A DNA stretch of 23,857 nt, taken from IMG/VR virus record IMGVR_UViG_3300006916_000385, positions 1 to 23,857 of that record. The stretch is one strand, 5' to 3'. This document shows positions 16,560 through 22,188 of the stretch, one piece after another. Below the pieces are notes generated by a model. The model worked only from the letters and a program-made list of their open reading frames with translations. It was not told where the DNA came from and ran no database searches. The position numbers were made by a program, and so were the translations under genes. The number at the start of each line of letters is the position of its first letter. Within the stretch, counting starts at the first letter, position 1. The DNA is from a virus.

Positions 16560-16569
16560 GATCTAAATA

Positions 16570-16610
16570 GTAAACCAAGAGTTGACTTAGGGTTGCTTAG
16601 GTGGCAAAGT
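16570..16610 (+). promoter_or_regulatory. Operator and promoter candidate of the rightward early operon
   Basis: GTAAAC-CAAGA-GTTGAC (16570-16586) matches the operator at 22127 with one mismatch in the right arm. The right arm contains TTGACT (16582-16587), a good -35 box; CAAAGT at 16605-16610 lies 17 bases on as a weak -10. A repressor on the operator would cover the -35. It is the first possible promoter after the terminator at 16532-16559. Confidence 0.5.
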
Positions 16611-16654
16611 ATCACCGTCGAAACAAATTAAGTAATAACCAACAGGAGATCGAC

Positions 16655-17065
16655 ATGGAAAACATCAAACAACCTTTAATCGAAAAGATCGCTGAAGCTA
16701 AAGCAGAAATTGCTGAACTAGGCATCGACTACGATACTGCCGAGTCTATATGGGACGCGCAGCCTAGCATTGATGATTTGGACGCATTGCGGGAATTCTA
16801 CTCATCCAAAGCCAACACCGACGCGCTAACTGCATACCGACTGTATTTGGATATCGAAGCCTACCAAGTAACGATGGATCTGCCGTTGGCAAAGGTCGAA
16901 ACCCGTTACGTAATCACTGATGGCCCGCTTATCTCACCCGCTGGCTTTTATCTTGATTCCGGCGTCTACATCAAAAACGACGTATGGATCGAAACGGATC
17001 GGCTGCCACGATCATTGCGAGGCCTAAAAGCCTACGACGTACAGAAAGACAAGGAGGCCGCGTAA
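16655..17065 (+). CDS. Hypothetical protein, first gene of rightward early operon
   Basis: 136 residues from the ATG preceded by AGGAG at 16644-16648; a GTG frame start at 16601 is less likely because it would lie in the promoter region. The N-terminal half is helical and acidic (EKIAEAKAEIAELGIDYDTA); the second half has LAKVETRYVITDGPLISPAG and YIKNDVWIETDRLPRSLRG. No family is recognised. The end, KDKEAA, is encoded within the hairpin at 17056-17071, so the stop codon lies in its loop. Confidence 0.6.
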   Translation: MENIKQPLIEKIAEAKAEIAELGIDYDTAESIWDAQPSIDDLDALREFYSSKANTDALTAYRLYLDIEAYQVTMDLPLAKVETRYVITDGPLISPAGFYLDSGVYIKNDVWIETDRLPRSLRGLKAYDVQKDKEAA

Positions 17066-17071
17066 GCGGTC
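17056..17071 (+). repeat. Stop-codon hairpin, copy 1
   Basis: GGCCGC-GTAA-GCGGTC forms a six-pair stem (one G-U) closed by a GUAA tetraloop. The UAA in the loop is the stop codon of 16655-17065. The next gene begins 18 bases later. Three related copies occur at 17236, 21606 and 21850. Confidence 0.75.
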
Positions 17072-17088
17072 TTTGGGGGATTACACAA

Positions 17089-17244
17089 ATGGCGAAGCAA
17101 CAAGAAAGCCGATTTGTTTACGAAATCTACAGGTGCATTCACCAAGCTAGTGATCGTAAAGCTCAATTAGAGCAACAGGGCTACGAGGTTAAAATTCGCG
17201 AAACAACGCGCGTTCTCTTAGCCGCAAGAAAGGTCGCCGCGTAA
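17089..17244 (+). CDS. Hypothetical small basic protein (51 aa)
   Basis: Starts at the ATG preceded by GGGGGA at 17075-17080, which makes more sense than the longer frame opening inside the previous gene. The product (MAKQQESRFVYEIYRCIHQA, DRKAQLEQQGYEVKIRETT, VLLAARKVAA) is basic and looks like a small alpha/beta protein. No family recognised. It also ends in VAA with its stop codon in a GUAA hairpin loop, like its upstream neighbour. Confidence 0.6.
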   Translation: MAKQQESRFVYEIYRCIHQASDRKAQLEQQGYEVKIRETTRVLLAARKVAA

Positions 17245-17250
17245 GCGGTC
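17236..17250 (+). repeat. Stop-codon hairpin, copy 2
   Basis: GCCGC-GTAA-GCGGT, five pairs with one G-U at the base, GUAA tetraloop, UAA in the loop is the stop codon of 17089-17244. The helicase ATG follows 10 bases later with no Shine-Dalgarno sequence of its own in between. Confidence 0.72.
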
Positions 17251-17260
17251 ATTGCCTCCT

Positions 17261-18784
17261 ATGAAACTGCGAGAATATCAAAGCAAGGCGGTAGGGGAGT
17301 CTATCGCCGAGCTATCAAGGCGCGACGCGATTGTCCTACAAGCTCCAACTGGATCGGGTAAAACCGTCATGGCTGCGGCTGTTGCCGATTATTACCTACA
17401 AAAACATCAGCGGGTTCTGTTTTTATTGCCGAGGCGCGAGTTAGTTGATCAGACCGCCGATAAGTTCGACGCCATTGGCTACGACTTTGGAAACGACTAC
17501 GGCATCATAATGGCTGGCGAAGAGATGACTTATTGGACTCTCGGATGCCCATTGCAGATAGCCTCAAAGGACACGCTACACGCCAGAACAAAGAGCGGCA
17601 GGATCGAACTACCCGAAGCCGCATTGTTAATTGTAGATGAGTGTCACCTTTCACTAAGCCCGACTTGGCTGAAACTAATTGACCACTACAAAGAGCAAGG
17701 AACGCATATTCTGGGTCTGACTGCCACGCCAGCGCGGGGAGATGGCAGGGGGTTAGGTGAAGCCTATTCAATGATGGTACAGGCTCCTATGGTGTCTGAG
17801 TTGATGAATATGGGCCATCTGTCGAGAGCCACATATTACGCGCCGACTCAGGTTGACTTAGACGGGATCGCCTTTGACCGCAAAAAGCACGACTACAACG
17901 AAACGCAATTGCAGGAGCGGATGTCCCAGCAGCACATCGTCGGCGACATTGTAGAGCATTGGTTAAAGCTGGCTGGCGGCAGACGGACTGTTGTGTTCTG
18001 CGCTGGGGTTAAGCACAGCATTTTAGTGAGGGACAGGTTTAGATCGCAGGGCATAAAAGCAGATCACGTTGATGGCATGACTGATATCAATGAACGCAAA
18101 GCTATCTTTGATCGGTTCCGATCCGGCGAAACACAAGTATTGACCAACTGCATGGTGGCAACTTATGGTTTCGATTTGCCGGAGATGGATTGCGTTGTAT
18201 TAGCGAGGCCAACTCAGTCGATCATCCTGCACTTGCAGATGTTAGGACGGGGCCTGAGAACAGCCGAAGGGAAGGAAGATTGTTTGGTACTAGATCACGC
18301 TGGCAATGTAGTCCGTTTGGGATTTGCGAGCGATGAAGTGCCGTGGGGATTAGAACCGACGGGGAATTTGTATGAGCGAATCGCACAAGAACGACTTAAG
18401 AAAACGATTGAAGACAGTGAAGGAATTGTCTGTGATAGCTGCGGCCATATCTTTACGAGTGCTAGAAAATGCCCGTCATGCGGCTGGGAGTTACCTGAGA
18501 AAAAAGGCAAAGACATCAACGTTGCTGACGGTGAACTGGTTTCCTACACCGCGCAAGATGGCGTTGATGTTGACGAAATTAGAAGATTCTATCGTGAGAT
18601 GTTGGGGTTATGTCACTTGCGAAACCGCAAAGCTGGGGTCGCTTATTTCCGCACGCTGGCAAAGTACAATTACAAAGCGCCATATTCTTGGCTCAAGCTA
18701 CCGCCGTTGCAGCCATCGGAAACAACAATCGGTTACGACAAATATCAACAAATCAAATACGCTAAAAGCAGGGGGCGCAGATGA
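17261..18784 (+). CDS. SF2 DEAD/DEAH-type helicase with C-terminal zinc ribbon
   Basis: 507 residues from the ATG; an in-frame TTG three codons earlier is less likely. Motifs in order: Q-like REYQSKAV; Walker A APTGSGKT (28-35); Ia LLPRRELVDQTADKF; Walker B DECH (126-129); TATP (154-157); motif IV-like VVFCAGVKHSILV; motif V TNCMVATYGFDLP; motif VI QMLGRGLRT (326-334). A zinc ribbon C391-x2-C394-x9-C404-x2-C407 follows, then a helical tail. RecQ/UvrB-like SF2 helicases of this layout serve as the phage replication or recombination helicase. No Shine-Dalgarno is visible before the ATG, so translation may depend on coupling with the preceding gene. It overlaps the next gene by ATGA. Confidence 0.9.
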   Translation: MKLREYQSKAVGESIAELSRRDAIVLQAPTGSGKTVMAAAVADYYLQKHQRVLFLLPRRELVDQTADKFDAIGYDFGNDYGIIMAGEEMTYWTLGCPLQIASKDTLHARTKSGRIELPEAALLIVDECHLSLSPTWLKLIDHYKEQGTHILGLTATPARGDGRGLGEAYSMMVQAPMVSELMNMGHLSRATYYAPTQVDLDGIAFDRKKHDYNETQLQERMSQQHIVGDIVEHWLKLAGGRRTVVFCAGVKHSILVRDRFRSQGIKADHVDGMTDINERKAIFDRFRSGETQVLTNCMVATYGFDLPEMDCVVLARPTQSIILHLQMLGRGLRTAEGKEDCLVLDHAGNVVRLGFASDEVPWGLEPTGNLYERIAQERLKKTIEDSEGIVCDSCGHIFTSARKCPSCGWELPEKKGKDINVADGELVSYTAQDGVDVDEIRRFYREMLGLCHLRNRKAGVAYFRTLAKYNYKAPYSWLKLPPLQPSETTIGYDKYQQIKYAKSRGRR

Positions 18785-19110
18785 GTAGGGAAATCGACCA
18801 GCTTGATAGGATTCTTGATAAGCTAAGTACGAGAATTGAAGAATGGGATGCAGCGCAAAGCGAGGCAGCAGAAGCCGAGGCAAGACTGAAAAGCCAAGAA
18901 GCAATGGCCGCTAAAGCGATGATGGATAGCGGCATGAGCGCAGCCAAAGCCCAGCAAGAAGTTAGGGCCAAGGATGAATGGCAAGAAATGTATCTCGATG
19001 TTCAGTACAAAAGCATCGCAGCGCAAAAGGTGAAAATGCAGATCGAGCTAGGTAATAAATACTTTGAGGCCGAAAGAACGCGACAAGCCAACCTGCGAGG
19101 TATTCGCTAG
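18781..19110 (+). CDS. Small coiled-coil protein
   Basis: 109 residues, almost wholly helical and charged: EIDQLDRILDKLSTRIEEW, QSEAAEAEARLKSQEAMAAK, then YLDVQYKSIAAQKVKMQIEL and FEAERTRQANLRGIR. No catalytic motif. It starts in an ATGA overlap with the helicase and its stop overlaps the GTG of the NinG-like gene, so it is co-translated with both. Probably a structural partner or adaptor; no function is known to me. Confidence 0.65.
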   Translation: MSREIDQLDRILDKLSTRIEEWDAAQSEAAEAEARLKSQEAMAAKAMMDSGMSAAKAQQEVRAKDEWQEMYLDVQYKSIAAQKVKMQIELGNKYFEAERTRQANLRGIR

Positions 19111-19514
19111 TGCCAGAAACCCTACGGGCTAAGGCAATGAAAAAGCTGCAACTGCTAAGCAGAATCGCGGCGGCAGATGATCACGGTTATGTGGATTGTG
19201 TTACCTGCGGTATCACTAAGCACTACAAAGAAATGGACGGGGGCCACTTTATTCCCAAGGGTAAATCTAGCTACTGGGCGTTAGAAGTGGAGAACGTTCA
19301 CCCGCAGTGTAAGGCGTGTAATAACTGGGGTATGAAACACGGCGCAGCAGCGCAAGCCTATACAATCTGGATGATCGACTATTACGGTAAAGATTTCGTT
19401 GAGCATATGCTAGAAACGCAACGCAAAGTCAGAAAGCTATACACGGCTGACTATCGCGATATGATTAAGCAGTTCACGAAAGACATAAAATATCACGAGG
19501 GGCGAATATCGTGA
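19110..19514 (+). CDS. ninG: NinG/Rap-like HNH-type recombination protein
   Basis: 134 residues from a GTG that overlaps the previous stop. It carries C30-x2-C33 (DCVTCG), GGHFIPKG with the His at 46, then NVHPQCKACNNWGMKHG with C67-x2-C70, and YTIWMIDYYGKDF. This matches the NinG (Rap) family of lambdoid phages, structure-specific nucleases acting on recombination intermediates. The family is usually longer; here the zinc-binding nuclease core is present and the N-terminal arm short. Neighbouring helicase and small zinc protein fit a recombination/late replication block. Confidence 0.82.
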   Translation: MPETLRAKAMKKLQLLSRIAAADDHGYVDCVTCGITKHYKEMDGGHFIPKGKSSYWALEVENVHPQCKACNNWGMKHGAAAQAYTIWMIDYYGKDFVEHMLETQRKVRKLYTADYRDMIKQFTKDIKYHEGRIS

Positions 19515-19729
19515 GGGAATCATTCAATGCGAAACGCGAAGCATCCCGAAGAAGGTTGCAGCAGGACGTTGAGAAATTTACAGAAAATGGGGGTAAAATC
19601 ACCCAAGTAGAAGGGTATAAGCCAGTTGAGCTACTCTTTTGCTCGCACTGTAGGACTCGGAAGGCACGCGCCAAGTTTCCGAAGATTACAGGGATGGGGC
19701 AGTCAAAATGTTTTGATTGCGTACTGTGA
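19511..19729 (+). CDS. Small zinc-ribbon protein
   Basis: 72 residues from a GTG in GTGA overlap with the NinG-like gene. A basic helical start (RESFNAKREASRRRLQQDV) is followed by a short linker and C-x2-C (FCSHCRTRK) with a second pair SKCFDC 23 residues on, forming a likely four-Cys zinc site. Such small zinc proteins are common beside NinG-like genes; DNA or RNA binding is plausible but unproven. Stop overlaps the next GTG. Confidence 0.7.
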   Translation: MRESFNAKREASRRRLQQDVEKFTENGGKITQVEGYKPVELLFCSHCRTRKARAKFPKITGMGQSKCFDCVL

Positions 19730-19923
19730 AGCCGCGTCAGATAGCCGCCAAGATGATCAAGGCGATGGATGAAGCTGCTAAGCAGGTCTGGGAACAAGAA
19801 AAAGACCACATCGAAAAACAATACCGTAAGGGCTGGAAAGGACTCATTTGGGCGCATGTAACAAATCACTACATGAGGCAGAGCAGTGCAGCAGTATCGA
19901 GACAGGTCGGGATTGAACCATGA
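19726..19923 (+). CDS. Hypothetical small basic protein
   Basis: 65 residues from the GTG at 19726, chosen because it makes the same GTGA overlap as the two genes before it; a TTG at 19717 is an alternative. The product (MKPRQIAAKMIKAMDEAAKQ, HIEKQYRKGWKGLIWAHVTN) is basic and helical. No family is recognised. Its end lies within the next gene (38 bases shared). Confidence 0.55.
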   Translation: MKPRQIAAKMIKAMDEAAKQVWEQEKDHIEKQYRKGWKGLIWAHVTNHYMRQSSAAVSRQVGIEP

Positions 19924-20854
19924 AGAATGGGTGGCTGAATTTAAGAGATTGGGCGCGGCAGGATTCGCGCATAAATACGATCTCGATGTCAGGAACGTCT
20001 ACAAAAAGCGAAGAATGCTAGAGGCGACGTTTGGAGAGATAAAGAACCCACTCAACCTAGATAAAAACAAACCAGCGAAGCATGTACGCAAAGAAATTGA
20101 CACGAATGATCTAGTAATCATCGTCGGGTCAGATGCGCACTATCAACTGAATACCGTATCAACGGCACATCTAGCTTTCGTTGAACTAACCAAAGAACTA
20201 CAGCCCGATATGATCATCTTGAATGGGGATATGATCGACGGGGCAAGTATTAGCCGACATCCGCCAAGAGGCTGGGAATATATACCAGCGTTATCCGATG
20301 AGATGGAAACCGTACAGCAGCGGCTAGAAGAAATCGAAAAAGCAGCGCCGAGCGCAGAGCGGATCTGGACTATAGGTAATCACGATGCTCGTTTTGAATC
20401 ACGCCTAGCGAGCCAGATGCCAGAGCTTAGAGGGCTGACAGGTACGCGATTGGAAGACTTTTTCCCAAGCTGGTCGATTTATATGTCTATGCACATAAAC
20501 TTCGGCGATAGGGAGAAGCTAGTTATTAAGCATAGATGGAATGGCGGCGTTCACGCGGGGTATAACAACGTTCTAAAAGGCGGGGCTAATATGGTTACAG
20601 GCCACACCCATCAGCAGGAATGTAAGCCGTACACTGATTACACCGGAACACGATTTGGCATTCAGCTAGGGACAATGCAGGAGCCACACGCGCCAGCGTT
20701 TGAGTATGCAGAAGATTCCCCGAAGAACTGGGTTAGTGGGTTTGCTGTAATAACGATCCGAGATGGCATTCTAATGATGCCTGAGTTCATAAGAGCGCAT
20801 AAGCCGGGGACTTACGAGTTTAGGGGCGAGTTGAGGAAGATAGATGATGACTGA
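19886..20854 (+). CDS. Calcineurin-like metallophosphoesterase
   Basis: 322 residues from a GTG with GAGG eight bases upstream. The N-terminal 50 residues look like a helical DNA-binding or docking region (EEWVAEFKRLGAAGFAHKYD). Metal-site motifs follow: SDAH (82-85), NGDMID (113-118), GNHD (164-167), and GHTHQQ (239-244), the full set for a two-metal phosphoesterase. Related phage proteins act as DNA nucleases or DNA-end processing phosphatases, but no SbcD capping domain is seen. Located just after the NinG-like and zinc proteins, it probably works on DNA. The substrate is not determined by sequence. Confidence 0.85.
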   Translation: MQQYRDRSGLNHEEWVAEFKRLGAAGFAHKYDLDVRNVYKKRRMLEATFGEIKNPLNLDKNKPAKHVRKEIDTNDLVIIVGSDAHYQLNTVSTAHLAFVELTKELQPDMIILNGDMIDGASISRHPPRGWEYIPALSDEMETVQQRLEEIEKAAPSAERIWTIGNHDARFESRLASQMPELRGLTGTRLEDFFPSWSIYMSMHINFGDREKLVIKHRWNGGVHAGYNNVLKGGANMVTGHTHQQECKPYTDYTGTRFGIQLGTMQEPHAPAFEYAEDSPKNWVSGFAVITIRDGILMMPEFIRAHKPGTYEFRGELRKIDDD

Positions 20855-21071
20855 AGTTTACCCAATAGATTTGATCGTATCGCGGCGAATGGGATACCTC
20901 GACGGTGAGACAATCAAAGAGGTTACGGCATTTGCTGAGACGCAAAACATAGAAAATTTGCACAACGCCCGAGCGCATCTTGCTAAACTGATCGAGCGCG
21001 AAGAATTTAAGCGCAAGCAACAAGCAGATTACGAACAAAGGGCAGGATACTATGGCGAACATACTGATTGA
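20844..21071 (+). CDS. Hypothetical small helical protein
   Basis: 75 residues starting at the first of two ATGs, with GAGG seven bases before it. MTEVYPIDLIVSRRMGYLDG is followed by helical, charged TIKEVTAFAETQNIENLHNARAH and LIEREEFKRKQQADYEQR. No function recognised. Overlaps the metallophosphoesterase by 11 bases and the next gene by 20 bases. Confidence 0.55.
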   Translation: MMTEVYPIDLIVSRRMGYLDGETIKEVTAFAETQNIENLHNARAHLAKLIEREEFKRKQQADYEQRAGYYGEHTD

Positions 21072-21219
21072 GGATATGCAGCCGGGGACGATAATCACAG
21101 TAATTTGCGAATATCAGGGAGAGATCGAGGGGCCTGATCCCGGCGAAGAAGCCCCCGAAGATGAAGAAGAACAGATATTAAGACTTGTCGGCGAACCGAT
21201 AAGGGCAGGTCGGGCGTAA
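21052..21219 (+). CDS. Small acidic protein (55 aa)
   Basis: An ATG with AGGATACT upstream opens a 55-codon frame: MANILIEDMQPGTIITVICE, then a highly acidic middle (EIEGPDPGEEAPEDEEEQ) and ILRLVGEPIRAGRA. About a third of the residues from 20 to 43 are Asp or Glu. It overlaps the previous gene by 20 bases, and its end overlaps the end of the leftward gene 21178-21363 by 42 bases. A DNA-mimic or inhibitor role is possible for so acidic a protein but nothing in the sequence proves it. Confidence 0.55.
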   Translation: MANILIEDMQPGTIITVICEYQGEIEGPDPGEEAPEDEEEQILRLVGEPIRAGRA

Positions 21220-21363
21220 CTCTTTGAAGTCAGGCCAAATACCGTCACAGACGTTGGTCATGTATTCAGATTCTTCGAGCAGTTCATCGTTAAACGACAT
21301 TGCCGATGACCACATCATCAGCACGAATAAAGCGCCTATCAGTAAAACGTAACGTAATCGCAT
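21178..21363 (-). CDS. Small exported or membrane-anchored protein
   Basis: 61 residues with a signal-anchor-like start (MRLRYVLLIGALFVLMMWSS) and a short outer part ELLEESEYMTNVCDGIWPDF...RPTCPYR with two Cys. I recall similar phage-encoded exported mini-proteins with a C...GWPDxxxxxxxC pattern. It starts in a TAATG overlap with the previous leftward gene and converges on 21052-21219. Function unknown; interaction with the host envelope is an inference from topology. Confidence 0.6.
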   Translation of the reverse strand: MRLRYVLLIGALFVLMMWSSAMSFNDELLEESEYMTNVCDGIWPDFKELRPTCPYRFADKS

Positions 21364-21593
21364 TACAAAACTCCCGAACGGATGAAGCGGCGAACCGCGT
21401 TGTAGATTGTGCTTTGAGCCAAACCCATCTCGCGAGAGATAGCGGCCTTTGTATAGCCTTGCTGATATAGCTCACCAATGCGGTCAATTTGTGCCTCGGT
21501 CAGCTTTTTAGGTGCTGGCCTATTGCTAGAACGCCCGTACATATCGGGCAGCTTTTTGAGCGCCTGAGTTGCTCGGTAGAAGGTGTCGTTCAT
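21363..21593 (-). CDS. Helix-turn-helix protein, resolvase/Hin-type HTH
   Basis: 76 residues from the ATG at 21593, with GGGGG seven bases upstream. The C-terminal half holds a strong HTH, LTEAQIDRIGELYQQGYTKA followed by ISREMGLAQSTIYNAVRRFI, like the DNA-binding end of Hin/resolvase recombinases and small transposase-type regulators. The N-terminal part is basic (ATQALKKLPDMYGRSSNRPA) with no catalytic domain, so it is a stand-alone DNA-binding protein. It may control this leftward cluster or the lysis genes. Hairpin copy 3 lies just upstream of its start. Confidence 0.72.
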   Translation of the reverse strand: MNDTFYRATQALKKLPDMYGRSSNRPAPKKLTEAQIDRIGELYQQGYTKAAISREMGLAQSTIYNAVRRFIRSGVL

Positions 21594-21605
21594 TATGCCC
21601 CCAGA

Positions 21606-21619
21606 GCCGCTTACGCGGC
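21606..21619 (-). repeat. Stop-codon hairpin, copy 3
   Basis: On the minus strand GCCGC-GTAA-GCGGC, five perfect pairs with GUAA loop. It lies 9 bases beyond the TGA of gene 21629-21838, but the loop UAA is still in the frame of that gene (Ser-Thr-Ser-Ala-Ala-stop would follow read-through), so it keeps the same register as the other copies. The next start is 12 bases downstream. Confidence 0.72.
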
Positions 21620-21628
21620 GCTTGTTGA

Positions 21629-21838
21629 TCATCGTAGACGCAAATCCAGTTTGTCTGCGCCGTGTAAAACAGTGGCGTCAATCGTGTGAATTGCGTCGTG
21701 CCATAAATCGTCTTGCCGCACCTTAGCCTGTTCAGCCAGCTCCATCGTAGGGTAAACGCCAACAATGGATGTGTAATCAGACATTTTGCTAAAACGGCTG
21801 AGAACGTAGGCATTCGCCAAAATTTTTCGCTCTTTCAT
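21629..21838 (-). CDS. Hypothetical small protein (69 aa)
   Basis: Starts with ATG preceded by AGGAGGAAAGA, the strongest ribosome site in this cluster. The product (KILANAYVLSRFSKMSDYTS, IVGVYPTMELAEQAKVRQDD, LWHDAIHTIDATVLHGADK) resembles small alpha/beta proteins with a repeated VYxTxELAExA-type segment. No family is recognised. It lies between two hairpin copies, one before its start and one after its stop. Confidence 0.6.
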   Translation of the reverse strand: MKERKILANAYVLSRFSKMSDYTSIVGVYPTMELAEQAKVRQDDLWHDAIHTIDATVLHGADKLDLRLR

Positions 21839-21849
21839 TCTTTCCTCCT

Positions 21850-21865
21850 AGCCGCTTACGCGGCC
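21850..21865 (-). repeat. Stop-codon hairpin, copy 4
   Basis: On the minus strand GGCCGC-GTAA-GCGGCT, six pairs with a terminal G-U and GUAA loop; the loop UAA is the stop codon of 21856-22056. AGGAGG of the next gene begins at the base of the stem. Confidence 0.75.
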
Positions 21866-22056
21866 ACCTCCGTCAGTTCAACACCACCAACTTGACTTTG
21901 AACGTAGTCAACAACTTGTTTTTTGCTCCAACTTTGTGGCAACCACATTTCCAAACCGTTCTCCAAAACAATCTCAAAAGCCTTGCCAGTATTGAGTTTG
22001 TTGGTTCTGAAGTTTATGTAATCAGTGACTTCCGTTTTTCTTATGGTTCCTTTCAT
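21856..22056 (-). CDS. Hypothetical small protein, first gene of the second leftward cluster
   Basis: 66 residues from ATG with AGGAAACGA upstream. Sequence: MKGTIRKTEVTDYINFRTNK, then AFEIVLENGLEMWLPQSWSK, KKQVVDYVQSQVGGVELTEVAA. Its beta strands and a C-terminal helix suggest a small globular protein. No family is recognised. Like the genes before copies 1 and 2, it ends in an Ala-Ala that comes from the hairpin. The divergent region upstream holds an operator. Confidence 0.6.
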   Translation of the reverse strand: MKGTIRKTEVTDYINFRTNKLNTGKAFEIVLENGLEMWLPQSWSKKQVVDYVQSQVGGVELTEVAA

Positions 22057-22188
22057 CTTGTCGTTTCCTAGTTGTTTGATCTTAATTTGTTCCGACGGGT
22101 TAATAATTACAAAAACTAAACTAAAAGTAAACCTTTTGTTTACGATAGCAAAAGGGTTAAAATATCCGATTTGCTATGTTGAGGTGAC
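22057..22188. promoter_or_regulatory. Divergent promoter region between leftward small genes and lysis operon
   Basis: 132 AT-rich bases. Rightward: TTGTTT (22136-22141) and TAAAAT (22158-22163), 16 bases apart, are a plausible promoter for the lysis operon, with GAGGTGA before the 22189 ATG. The perfect operator GTAAAC-CTTTT-GTTTAC (22127-22143) overlaps the -35. A second, poorer site TTAAC-CCGTC-GGAAC lies on the minus strand at 22089-22103; with flanks it matches 14 of 16 bases of the site at 15940-15955. Leftward promoter boxes are not clear. Confidence 0.6.
22127..22143. promoter_or_regulatory. Perfect operator GTAAAC-N5-GTTTAC
   Basis: Six-base arms GTAAAC/GTTTAC with a five-base spacer CTTTT. 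The arms match the operator at 15945-15959 and, with one mismatch, that at 16570-16586. It is the best preserved of the set and overlaps the lysis operon -35 candidate, so binding should block that promoter. Confidence 0.65.

Follow-up and report, generated by a model that had tools for sequence, protein, structure and literature searches.

Hairpins with the stop codon in the loop form gene ends and boundaries of gene exchange in an uncultured phage and related sequences

The window analysed here is an uncultured-phage fragment of 23,857 nucleotides (nt) (IMG/VR record IMGVR_UViG_3300006916_000385), in which four small genes end at or near a short GC-rich hairpin that holds a stop codon in its loop. 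Comparative analysis showed that selection maintains this hairpin at the ends of genes, with loop positions 2–4 taken up by the stop codon, and that the hairpin is a boundary where neighbouring genes are exchanged, relatives gaining or losing one open reading frame (ORF) exactly between two hairpins. The two hairpin pairs of the window mark accessory genes inserted between the leader and the first core gene of each early operon. The hairpin-tailed genes are likely to be promoterless cassettes, each made of an ORF with its own Shine-Dalgarno (SD) sequence and a GC hairpin of 5–6 bp, its tetraloop composed of a single base and the stop codon; the role of the RNA and the route of recombination are ones that we infer.

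The exact 13-mer GCCGCGTAAGCGG was located at 17057–17069 and 17236–17248 on the plus strand and at 21619–21607 and 21864–21852 on the minus strand, where a preliminary description of the window had placed four copies at small-gene ends. With up to two mismatches, it matched the window six times against 0.77 expected (0 of 100 shuffles reached six), and two of these six matches were the palindrome read on the opposite strand. The loop TAA was the true stop at three of the four hairpins (17063–17065 and 17242–17244 on the plus strand, 21858–21856 on the minus strand), and the three proteins stopping inside the loop all had a C-terminal Ala-Ala. At the fourth copy, the gene of 69 amino acids (aa) at 21838–21629 ended at a TGA (21631–21629), and the loop TAA (21613–21611) was the next in-frame stop, 18 nt on; the ORF reading thus agreed with the earlier one. 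The gaps from hairpin to next ATG were 18, 11, 12 and 12 nt, within the 10–18 bases described before.

Gene exchange at hairpin junctions

Nearly all contigs were collected through the hairpin itself, so the rates given here are conditional; the contigs were metagenomic, with hosts not identified, and their genes were called by a simple greedy ORF script. Control junctions were gapped, hairpin-free and no more than 4 kb from a hairpin. Among contig pairs, which are not fully independent, with upstream proteins 85–100% identical, the next gene was unrelated in 75% at hairpins (63 pairs) and in 28% at control junctions (122 pairs); with downstream proteins 85–100% identical, the previous gene was unrelated in 71% and 6%, respectively. 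When each family was counted once at an identity of at least 80%, the values were 0.71 vs 0.24 and 0.73 vs 0.12 (Mann-Whitney, p 2e-5 and 2e-7). Over the family-level comparisons, the values ranged from 0.71 to 0.78 at hairpins and from 0.12 to 0.37 at junctions that had no hairpin and were gapped or non-adjacent (Mann-Whitney, p 2e-5 to 2e-8).

In a within-pair control, which reduces the hairpin-sampling bias and does not remove it, both sides of the same gene were compared in the same contig pairs. For a shared gene A upstream of the hairpin (at least 85% identical), the right, hairpin neighbour differed in 0.82 and the left, non-hairpin neighbour in 0.29 (discordant 10 to 1); for a shared downstream gene B, the hairpin side differed in 0.81 and the other side in 0.25 (discordant 9 to 0). 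Below 60% identity this difference vanished, as expected once both sides have turned over. The per-position identity was about 0.9 up to the hairpin and dropped right behind it when gene B differed, and it rose at the hairpin when gene A differed; the spacer and SD tended to go with the downstream gene.

Five contig pairs differed by a single ORF lying exactly between two hairpins: L543/L499 (60 aa), L279/L574 (126 aa), L543/L279 (87 aa), L576/L510 (99 aa) and L709/L723 (75 aa). The hairpin remaining in L574 was a hybrid: its upstream flank matched one parental hairpin and its TTAG loop and terminator matched the other, the pattern expected if a crossover fell inside the arm. Cassette arrays contained up to five hairpins (L543). 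A separate observation was made on the minus strand of L135 (2299–2350), where two hairpins 38 nt apart surrounded the apparent tail of a lost gene.

The sequences being nearly all metagenome contigs and the hairpin being repeated, unrelated contigs could have been joined at it by the assembly. This is extremely unlikely: the exact repeats were mostly shorter than 19 nt, below the usual assembly words, both flanks were collinear in the gain and loss cases and between the window and its relatives L244–L246, and two complete phage records, OQ984150 and MZ188970, contain annotated genes that end in the hairpin.

Structure with the stop codon in the loop

The structure test covered 1262 unique gene ends (about 800 kb of sequence), taken from relatives of the window and from contigs carrying one or more copies, and the null was a random re-pairing of upstream and downstream halves. 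With the stop placed at loop positions 2–4, 49 stems reached 5 bp or more against about 5 expected, and the excess was gone when the loop was shifted by one base in either direction. With the exact-13-mer ends excluded, 10 stems of at least 6 bp remained against 1.4 expected. Homologous gene ends (protein identity of at least 50%, alignment reaching the C terminus) comprised 180 pairs with the same stem, 18 with a change in one arm and 23 with changes in both arms and the pairing kept; at one orthologous junction, for example, L279 had GCGGC-GTAA-GCCGC and L543 had GAGGC-TTAG-GCCTC. Because the ends other than the 13-mer still form the stem only with the stop at loop positions 2–4, and because changes in both arms keep the pairs, the pairing is selected. 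Pair 6, which is in no search pattern, was paired in 83% vs 75% in shuffles (sd 1%), and pairing beyond it was not above shuffles, giving an element of 14–18 nt. Folding of the junction RNAs in context predicted the stem as almost always formed and the loop as open. A second hairpin masking the next SD (CCCTTAC..AAGGG), which had seemed plausible on visual inspection, was rejected after folding showed no excess (z = +0.11). The difference in SD frequency between hairpin and other junctions was left unused, since the scans had selected for the SD.

The preliminary description had named a GNRA tetraloop containing the stop. The stop in the loop was borne out, but the loop was not strictly GNRA: across relatives it read GTAA, ATAA, TTAG, ATGA, GTGA, GTAG, CTAA, TTAA or TTGA, i.e., any base plus a stop, in a set chosen as stop-in-loop. 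In the restricted scan described below, GCCGC-GAAA-GCGGC was found at 48 sites with no stop in the loop and in mixed contexts. Since non-GNRA loops occur (ATAA, TTAG, GTAG and CTAA among them) and the GAAA sites differ in kind, the stop codon is what is kept, and the GNRA loop was rejected as the kept feature.

The Ala-Ala tail, for which a protease signal had been suggested earlier, could be a C-terminal degron for ClpXP-like proteases on early proteins, with the hairpin as a by-product of GC-rich Ala codons; the ssrA tag ends in ...LAA. Ala-Ala was encoded by 293 of 321 hairpin ends and also closed 48 of the 87 homologues that lacked the strict hairpin, and hairpin-free Ala-Ala ends were about twice as frequent as expected in these contigs (79 vs 35). 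However, several of these homologues without the hairpin kept the stop inside a loop of 5–6 nt, and the non-coding 3' arm tracked the coding 5' arm in the 23 homologous pairs. Some compensated stems encoded Glu-Ala, Ala-Glu, Gln-Ala or Ala-Ser. The third-last residue was mainly Glu, Lys or Val (Leu in 14 of 321), so an ssrA-like Leu-Ala-Ala was not the rule, and the fourth window copy sits behind an earlier TGA. As the main cause, the degron is therefore very unlikely. In L468, a homologue of a hairpin-tailed gene had lost its hairpin and overlapped the next start as ATGA.

Stable GC stems overlapping a gene end could also act as intrinsic transcription terminators or attenuators. A T run followed 27 of the 259 sites of the unrestricted scans described below, 7 of them at true gene ends, and TTAG-type copies were followed by TTTTTTTT in L279, L574 and L576. 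All four window copies and most others led instead into a purine-rich SD or a short spacer, and the U tract directly behind the GC stem was present in a minority of the relatives and lacking in the window and most relatives, which leaves a terminator function of the hairpin with a very low probability.

Distribution and specificity

Unrestricted scans of IMG/VR with the 14-mer ending in T or in C matched at least 120 stretches each, and in these loci 84 of 259 sites truly terminated an ORF of 40 aa or longer and had an SD and a start behind them. A restricted pattern required the hairpin, a gap, GGAG and ATG. In this form, GCCGC-GTAA-GCGGC was found in at least 120 viral stretches of IMG/VR, the arm-swapped GCGGC-GTAA-GCCGC in at least 120 and GCCGC-ATAA-GCGGC in 89, against only 4 for a scrambled stem of equal composition (CGGCG-GTAA-CGCCG). 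The stop in the loop actually terminated an ORF of 40 aa or longer at 184 of 227, 93 of 103 and 71 of 79 sites, respectively. The view of the preliminary description that a hairpin common to unrelated operons is unlikely to be due to chance was strongly supported by the scan counts and the stem statistics.

Bacteria were rejected as the main home of the element, the restricted pattern occurring in only 107 scattered stretches among 84,980 bacterial and archaeal species genomes (257 Gb). Nine alphaproteobacterial matches, mostly of Roseobacter type (L296, L303, L306, L328, L355, L356, L358, L361 and L362), had the 14-mer, SD and ATG with near-constant spans of 43–44 nt; these matches are probably one conserved chromosomal gene junction. 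Cultured phages gave weak DNA matches, with a clear gene-end copy in two records only.

Cassette sites of the window

The features of the window at the two early operons were as follows.

16655–17065, plus strand: accessory gene 1, 136 aa, ending in ...KEAA-stop in hairpin 1, at the head of the plus-strand early operon
17056–17071, plus strand: hairpin 1, G-GCCGC-GTAA-GCGGT-C, loop TAA (17063–17065) as stop codon
17089–17244, plus strand: accessory gene 2, 51 aa, no family match, ending in ...KVAA-stop in hairpin 2
17236–17249, plus strand: hairpin 2, GCCGC-GTAA-GCGGT, loop TAA (17242–17244) as stop, helicase ATG (17261) 11 nt on
17261–18784, plus strand: DEAD/DEAH-type DNA helicase, the first core gene behind the plus-strand cassettes
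21363–21593, minus strand: core gene of the minus-strand early operon, a small protein with a resolvase-type helix-turn-helix
21606–21619, minus strand: hairpin 3, GCCGC-GTAA-GCGGC, loop TAA as next in-frame stop
21629–21838, minus strand: accessory gene 4, 69 aa, no family match, TGA stop 18 nt ahead of the loop TAA
21851–21864, minus strand: hairpin 4, GCCGC-GTAA-GCGGC, loop TAA as stop of gene 22056–21856
21856–22056, minus strand: accessory gene 3, 66 aa, no family match, ending in ...VAA-stop in hairpin 4
22080–22180, minus strand: promoter and leader of the minus-strand early operon, conserved by alignment in L244–L246 as far as the cassette site begins

The relatives of the window were L243, L244, L245 and L246, with a helicase protein 88–100% identical. 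At the plus-strand site, blastn alignments were interrupted at 16656–17261 against L244 and at 16591–17271 against L245, accessory gene 1 being replaced in L244 and absent in L245. At the head of this operon the window had two hairpin-tailed genes before the helicase, L244 had another gene without a clean hairpin, and L245 had none, its helicase lying directly behind the promoter. On the minus strand, the nucleotide homology between the window and L244 ended at the edge of hairpin 3, precisely at position 21619. L244 had at this site a single 210-aa gene ending in GCCGC-ATAA-GCGGC, where the window had two genes with a hairpin each; in L245 and L246 the site was empty, the conserved leader continuing without interruption to the start codon (ATG, 21593) of the helix-turn-helix gene. 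Accessory gene 3 was absent in L244, L245 and L246, and accessory gene 4 in L245 and L246. These differences at both operon heads identify both of the operons formerly called unrelated as cassette sites. Placement at the operon head was rejected as a general rule, since it held in the window and failed in the group (first-three share 0.33 vs 0.40).

The most likely start of accessory gene 1 was the ATG at 16655, preceded by the SD AGGAG, with 16601 as an alternative; by inspection, its product resembled a hairpin-tailed protein in L259. The possibility that the four hairpin-tailed genes of the window are paralogues was checked by inspection, and they are not. None of the four had a family match in Pfam, PHROGs or NCBIfam, and a search of the window, L232, L188 and L700 against Rfam returned no described RNA family up to E=1.

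Family profile matches identified DEAD-box helicase, NinG, Cro-like and Rad52/Erf-like genes in the window, and the ORF list showed a terminase-like ORF at its right end. The core gene at 21363–21593 on the minus strand had only the resolvase-type helix-turn-helix (PF02796), without the catalytic domain. Both early operons had a GTAAAC..GTTTAC-like palindrome upstream, beside the promoter (16560–16655 on the plus strand, 22080–22180 on the minus strand), and also shared the transcribed leader CCGTCG[A/G]AACAAATTAAG, conserved in L244–L246; the palindrome probably serves both operons as a repressor operator, and the leader is probably an element common to the two. The N-terminal stretch of an ORF in L422, behind which lies another hairpin-tailed gene, resembled an alternative-frame reading of the 69-aa gene at 21838–21629.

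Gene content of the cassettes

The 324 hairpin-tailed genes fell into 158 families, 102 of them with a single member. Pfam matches were obtained for a small minority of 131 family representatives and included ArdC antirestriction proteins, AlpA and other helix-turn-helix proteins, and a few structural proteins. The cassette gene L692:476-1420 encoded an ArdC-like antirestriction product. In L414, L438 and L443, a serine recombinase gene (MIYGYTRVST...) was found directly downstream of the hairpin.

Proposed mechanism and alternatives

In the proposed mechanism, the hairpin would close behind the terminating ribosome and mark or protect the 3' end of that cistron. An ORF inserted into an operon in this form would leave the next gene undisturbed, the next start being independent. 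Strand annealing or template switching between hairpin copies, by phage annealing proteins or during replication, may then add, delete or swap cassettes; this route is suggested because many junctions share the short GC palindrome. Recombination by Rad52-like annealing proteins of phages works on short or diverged homologies (PMC3945230). Among the roles listed in the preliminary description, the mobile gene-end element came nearest, in that the hairpin bounds the genes that are exchanged, but it is the ORF with its hairpin that moves and not the hairpin alone. Coupling, release and messenger stability are possible roles of the hairpin RNA; the predicted access to the next SD, 0.51 vs 0.49 with the hairpin deleted, speaks against a simple switch by sequestration or coupling.

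Several points weigh against the cassettes as proposed. The exact identity between hairpins on one contig was 5–19 nt in most pairs (median 11 nt), shorter than the 23–27 nt of homology reported as the minimum for Red-beta (PMC3945230), and no recombinase was common to the contigs, many of which are fragments: serine recombinase PF00239 was found in 8 of 50 records, PF04404 (ERF) in 6 and phrog_1097 in 3. These short shared runs and the lack of a common recombinase are the weakest link. Sampling through the hairpin makes the exchange rates conditional, and the within-pair controls only reduce this bias. No hairpin was left at the empty sites of L245 and L246, so the first acquisition at a new site would need another route. 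As for the putative RNA role, the predicted access to the next SD stayed about the same when the hairpin was deleted.

It is also possible, though less likely than not, that the hairpin is only an intercistronic mRNA element that stabilises or processes the 3' end of the cistron or insulates translation. The link with exchange would then be a by-product, genes with a proper 3' end being those that survive illegitimate transfer. The preservation of the structure despite differing stems and loops, the predicted formation of the stems, the terminator-like T runs behind some copies (e.g., L232 and L279) and the short identical repeats between partners are all consistent with it. However, the exact gain and loss of ORFs with hairpins as flanking direct repeats and the hybrid hairpin of L574 fit a crossover within the hairpin better than passive co-transfer, and the uniformity of the sequence (GCCGC or GCGGC) exceeds what the structure needs.

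A DNA-level site for a dedicated, integron-like cassette recombinase would explain the exchange in another way. The promoterless ORF with a 3' hairpin-forming element as the unit of exchange is shared in form with integron cassettes, the arrays reach five hairpins (L543), and serine recombinase genes adjoin hairpins in the three contigs named above. Integron attC sites are about 57–141 nt long and contain R boxes. The hairpin, at 14–18 nt and with no pairing above shuffles beyond pair 6, lies far below this length (>50 nt) and is part of the end of a coding sequence; its loop orientation and frame always track the stop codon, a constraint not expected of a DNA site; and serine recombinase, in 8 of 50 records only, was not shared by the contigs. 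No integron integrase turned up, none having been sought as such, since the recombinase search on this point was for PF00239 only. This explanation is accordingly very improbable. The cassette reading has a stronger form, which we regard as unlikely: a dedicated phage gene-cassette system in which the hairpins serve as translation-safe ends and as actively used recombination sites, through single strands or a specific enzyme, and shuffle accessory, possibly anti-defence, genes into early operons. Such a system would be a 14–18 nt counterpart of the integron.

Relation to known elements and significance

The CUUCGG hairpins of T4 intercistronic regions, reportedly described by Tuerk et al. in 1988 as very stable, are likewise small, stable tetraloop hairpins between cistrons. 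Their C(UUCG)G loop was not found here; the loop is instead any base plus the stop, and the hairpin is an exchange boundary. The morons of lambdoid phages, also single accessory genes between core phage genes, are said to carry their own promoter and terminator (an account ascribed to Juhala et al. in 2000). The window cassettes lie behind a conserved operon leader, cassettes in general mostly lack a T run, and a consensus promoter scan gave no better result than shuffles.

The SAS/ESAS of cluster K mycobacteriophages are sequences of about 13 bp, GGGATAGGAGCCC, at translation starts; they occur at many junctions of small genes, and some of them contain inverted repeats (PMC3203893). The stop hairpin shares with them a repeat of about 13 bp at small-gene junctions; however, SAS is asymmetric and located at the start codon, whereas the stop hairpin has a different sequence and is located at the stop codon. 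Short conserved boundary sequences between phage modules have been proposed as foci for homologous recombination (Susskind and Botstein 1978; Clark et al. 2001, coliphage HK620; cited in PMC3029335), and, according to passages of PMC3029335, such sequences are not findable at most mosaic boundaries. Like the lambdoid boundary sequences, the stop hairpin is a short conserved junction sequence whose flanking genes differ between phages and at which homology breaks. Unlike them, it is a hairpin with the upstream stop in its loop, it shows compensatory pairing, and it occurs at many junctions and with unrelated gene families. A literature search, with most subscription journals outside its scope, found no stop-in-loop hairpin reported as a cassette boundary. 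We regard the stop-in-loop hairpin as a variant within the boundary-sequence kind.

The gene-by-gene mosaicism of tailed phages is an old open question, and the hairpin at cassette seams suggests a component so far missing from accounts of how phage genomes turn mosaic. It is a compact, recognisable boundary element, found with many unrelated gene families and with exact events of gain and loss, and it brings a built-in reason why genes joined at it work, namely a complete ORF end followed by a fresh start. The question of mosaicism thereby becomes testable by a simple recombination assay, and the hairpin provides a sequence flag for accessory genes of phages, which for the most part belong to no known family.

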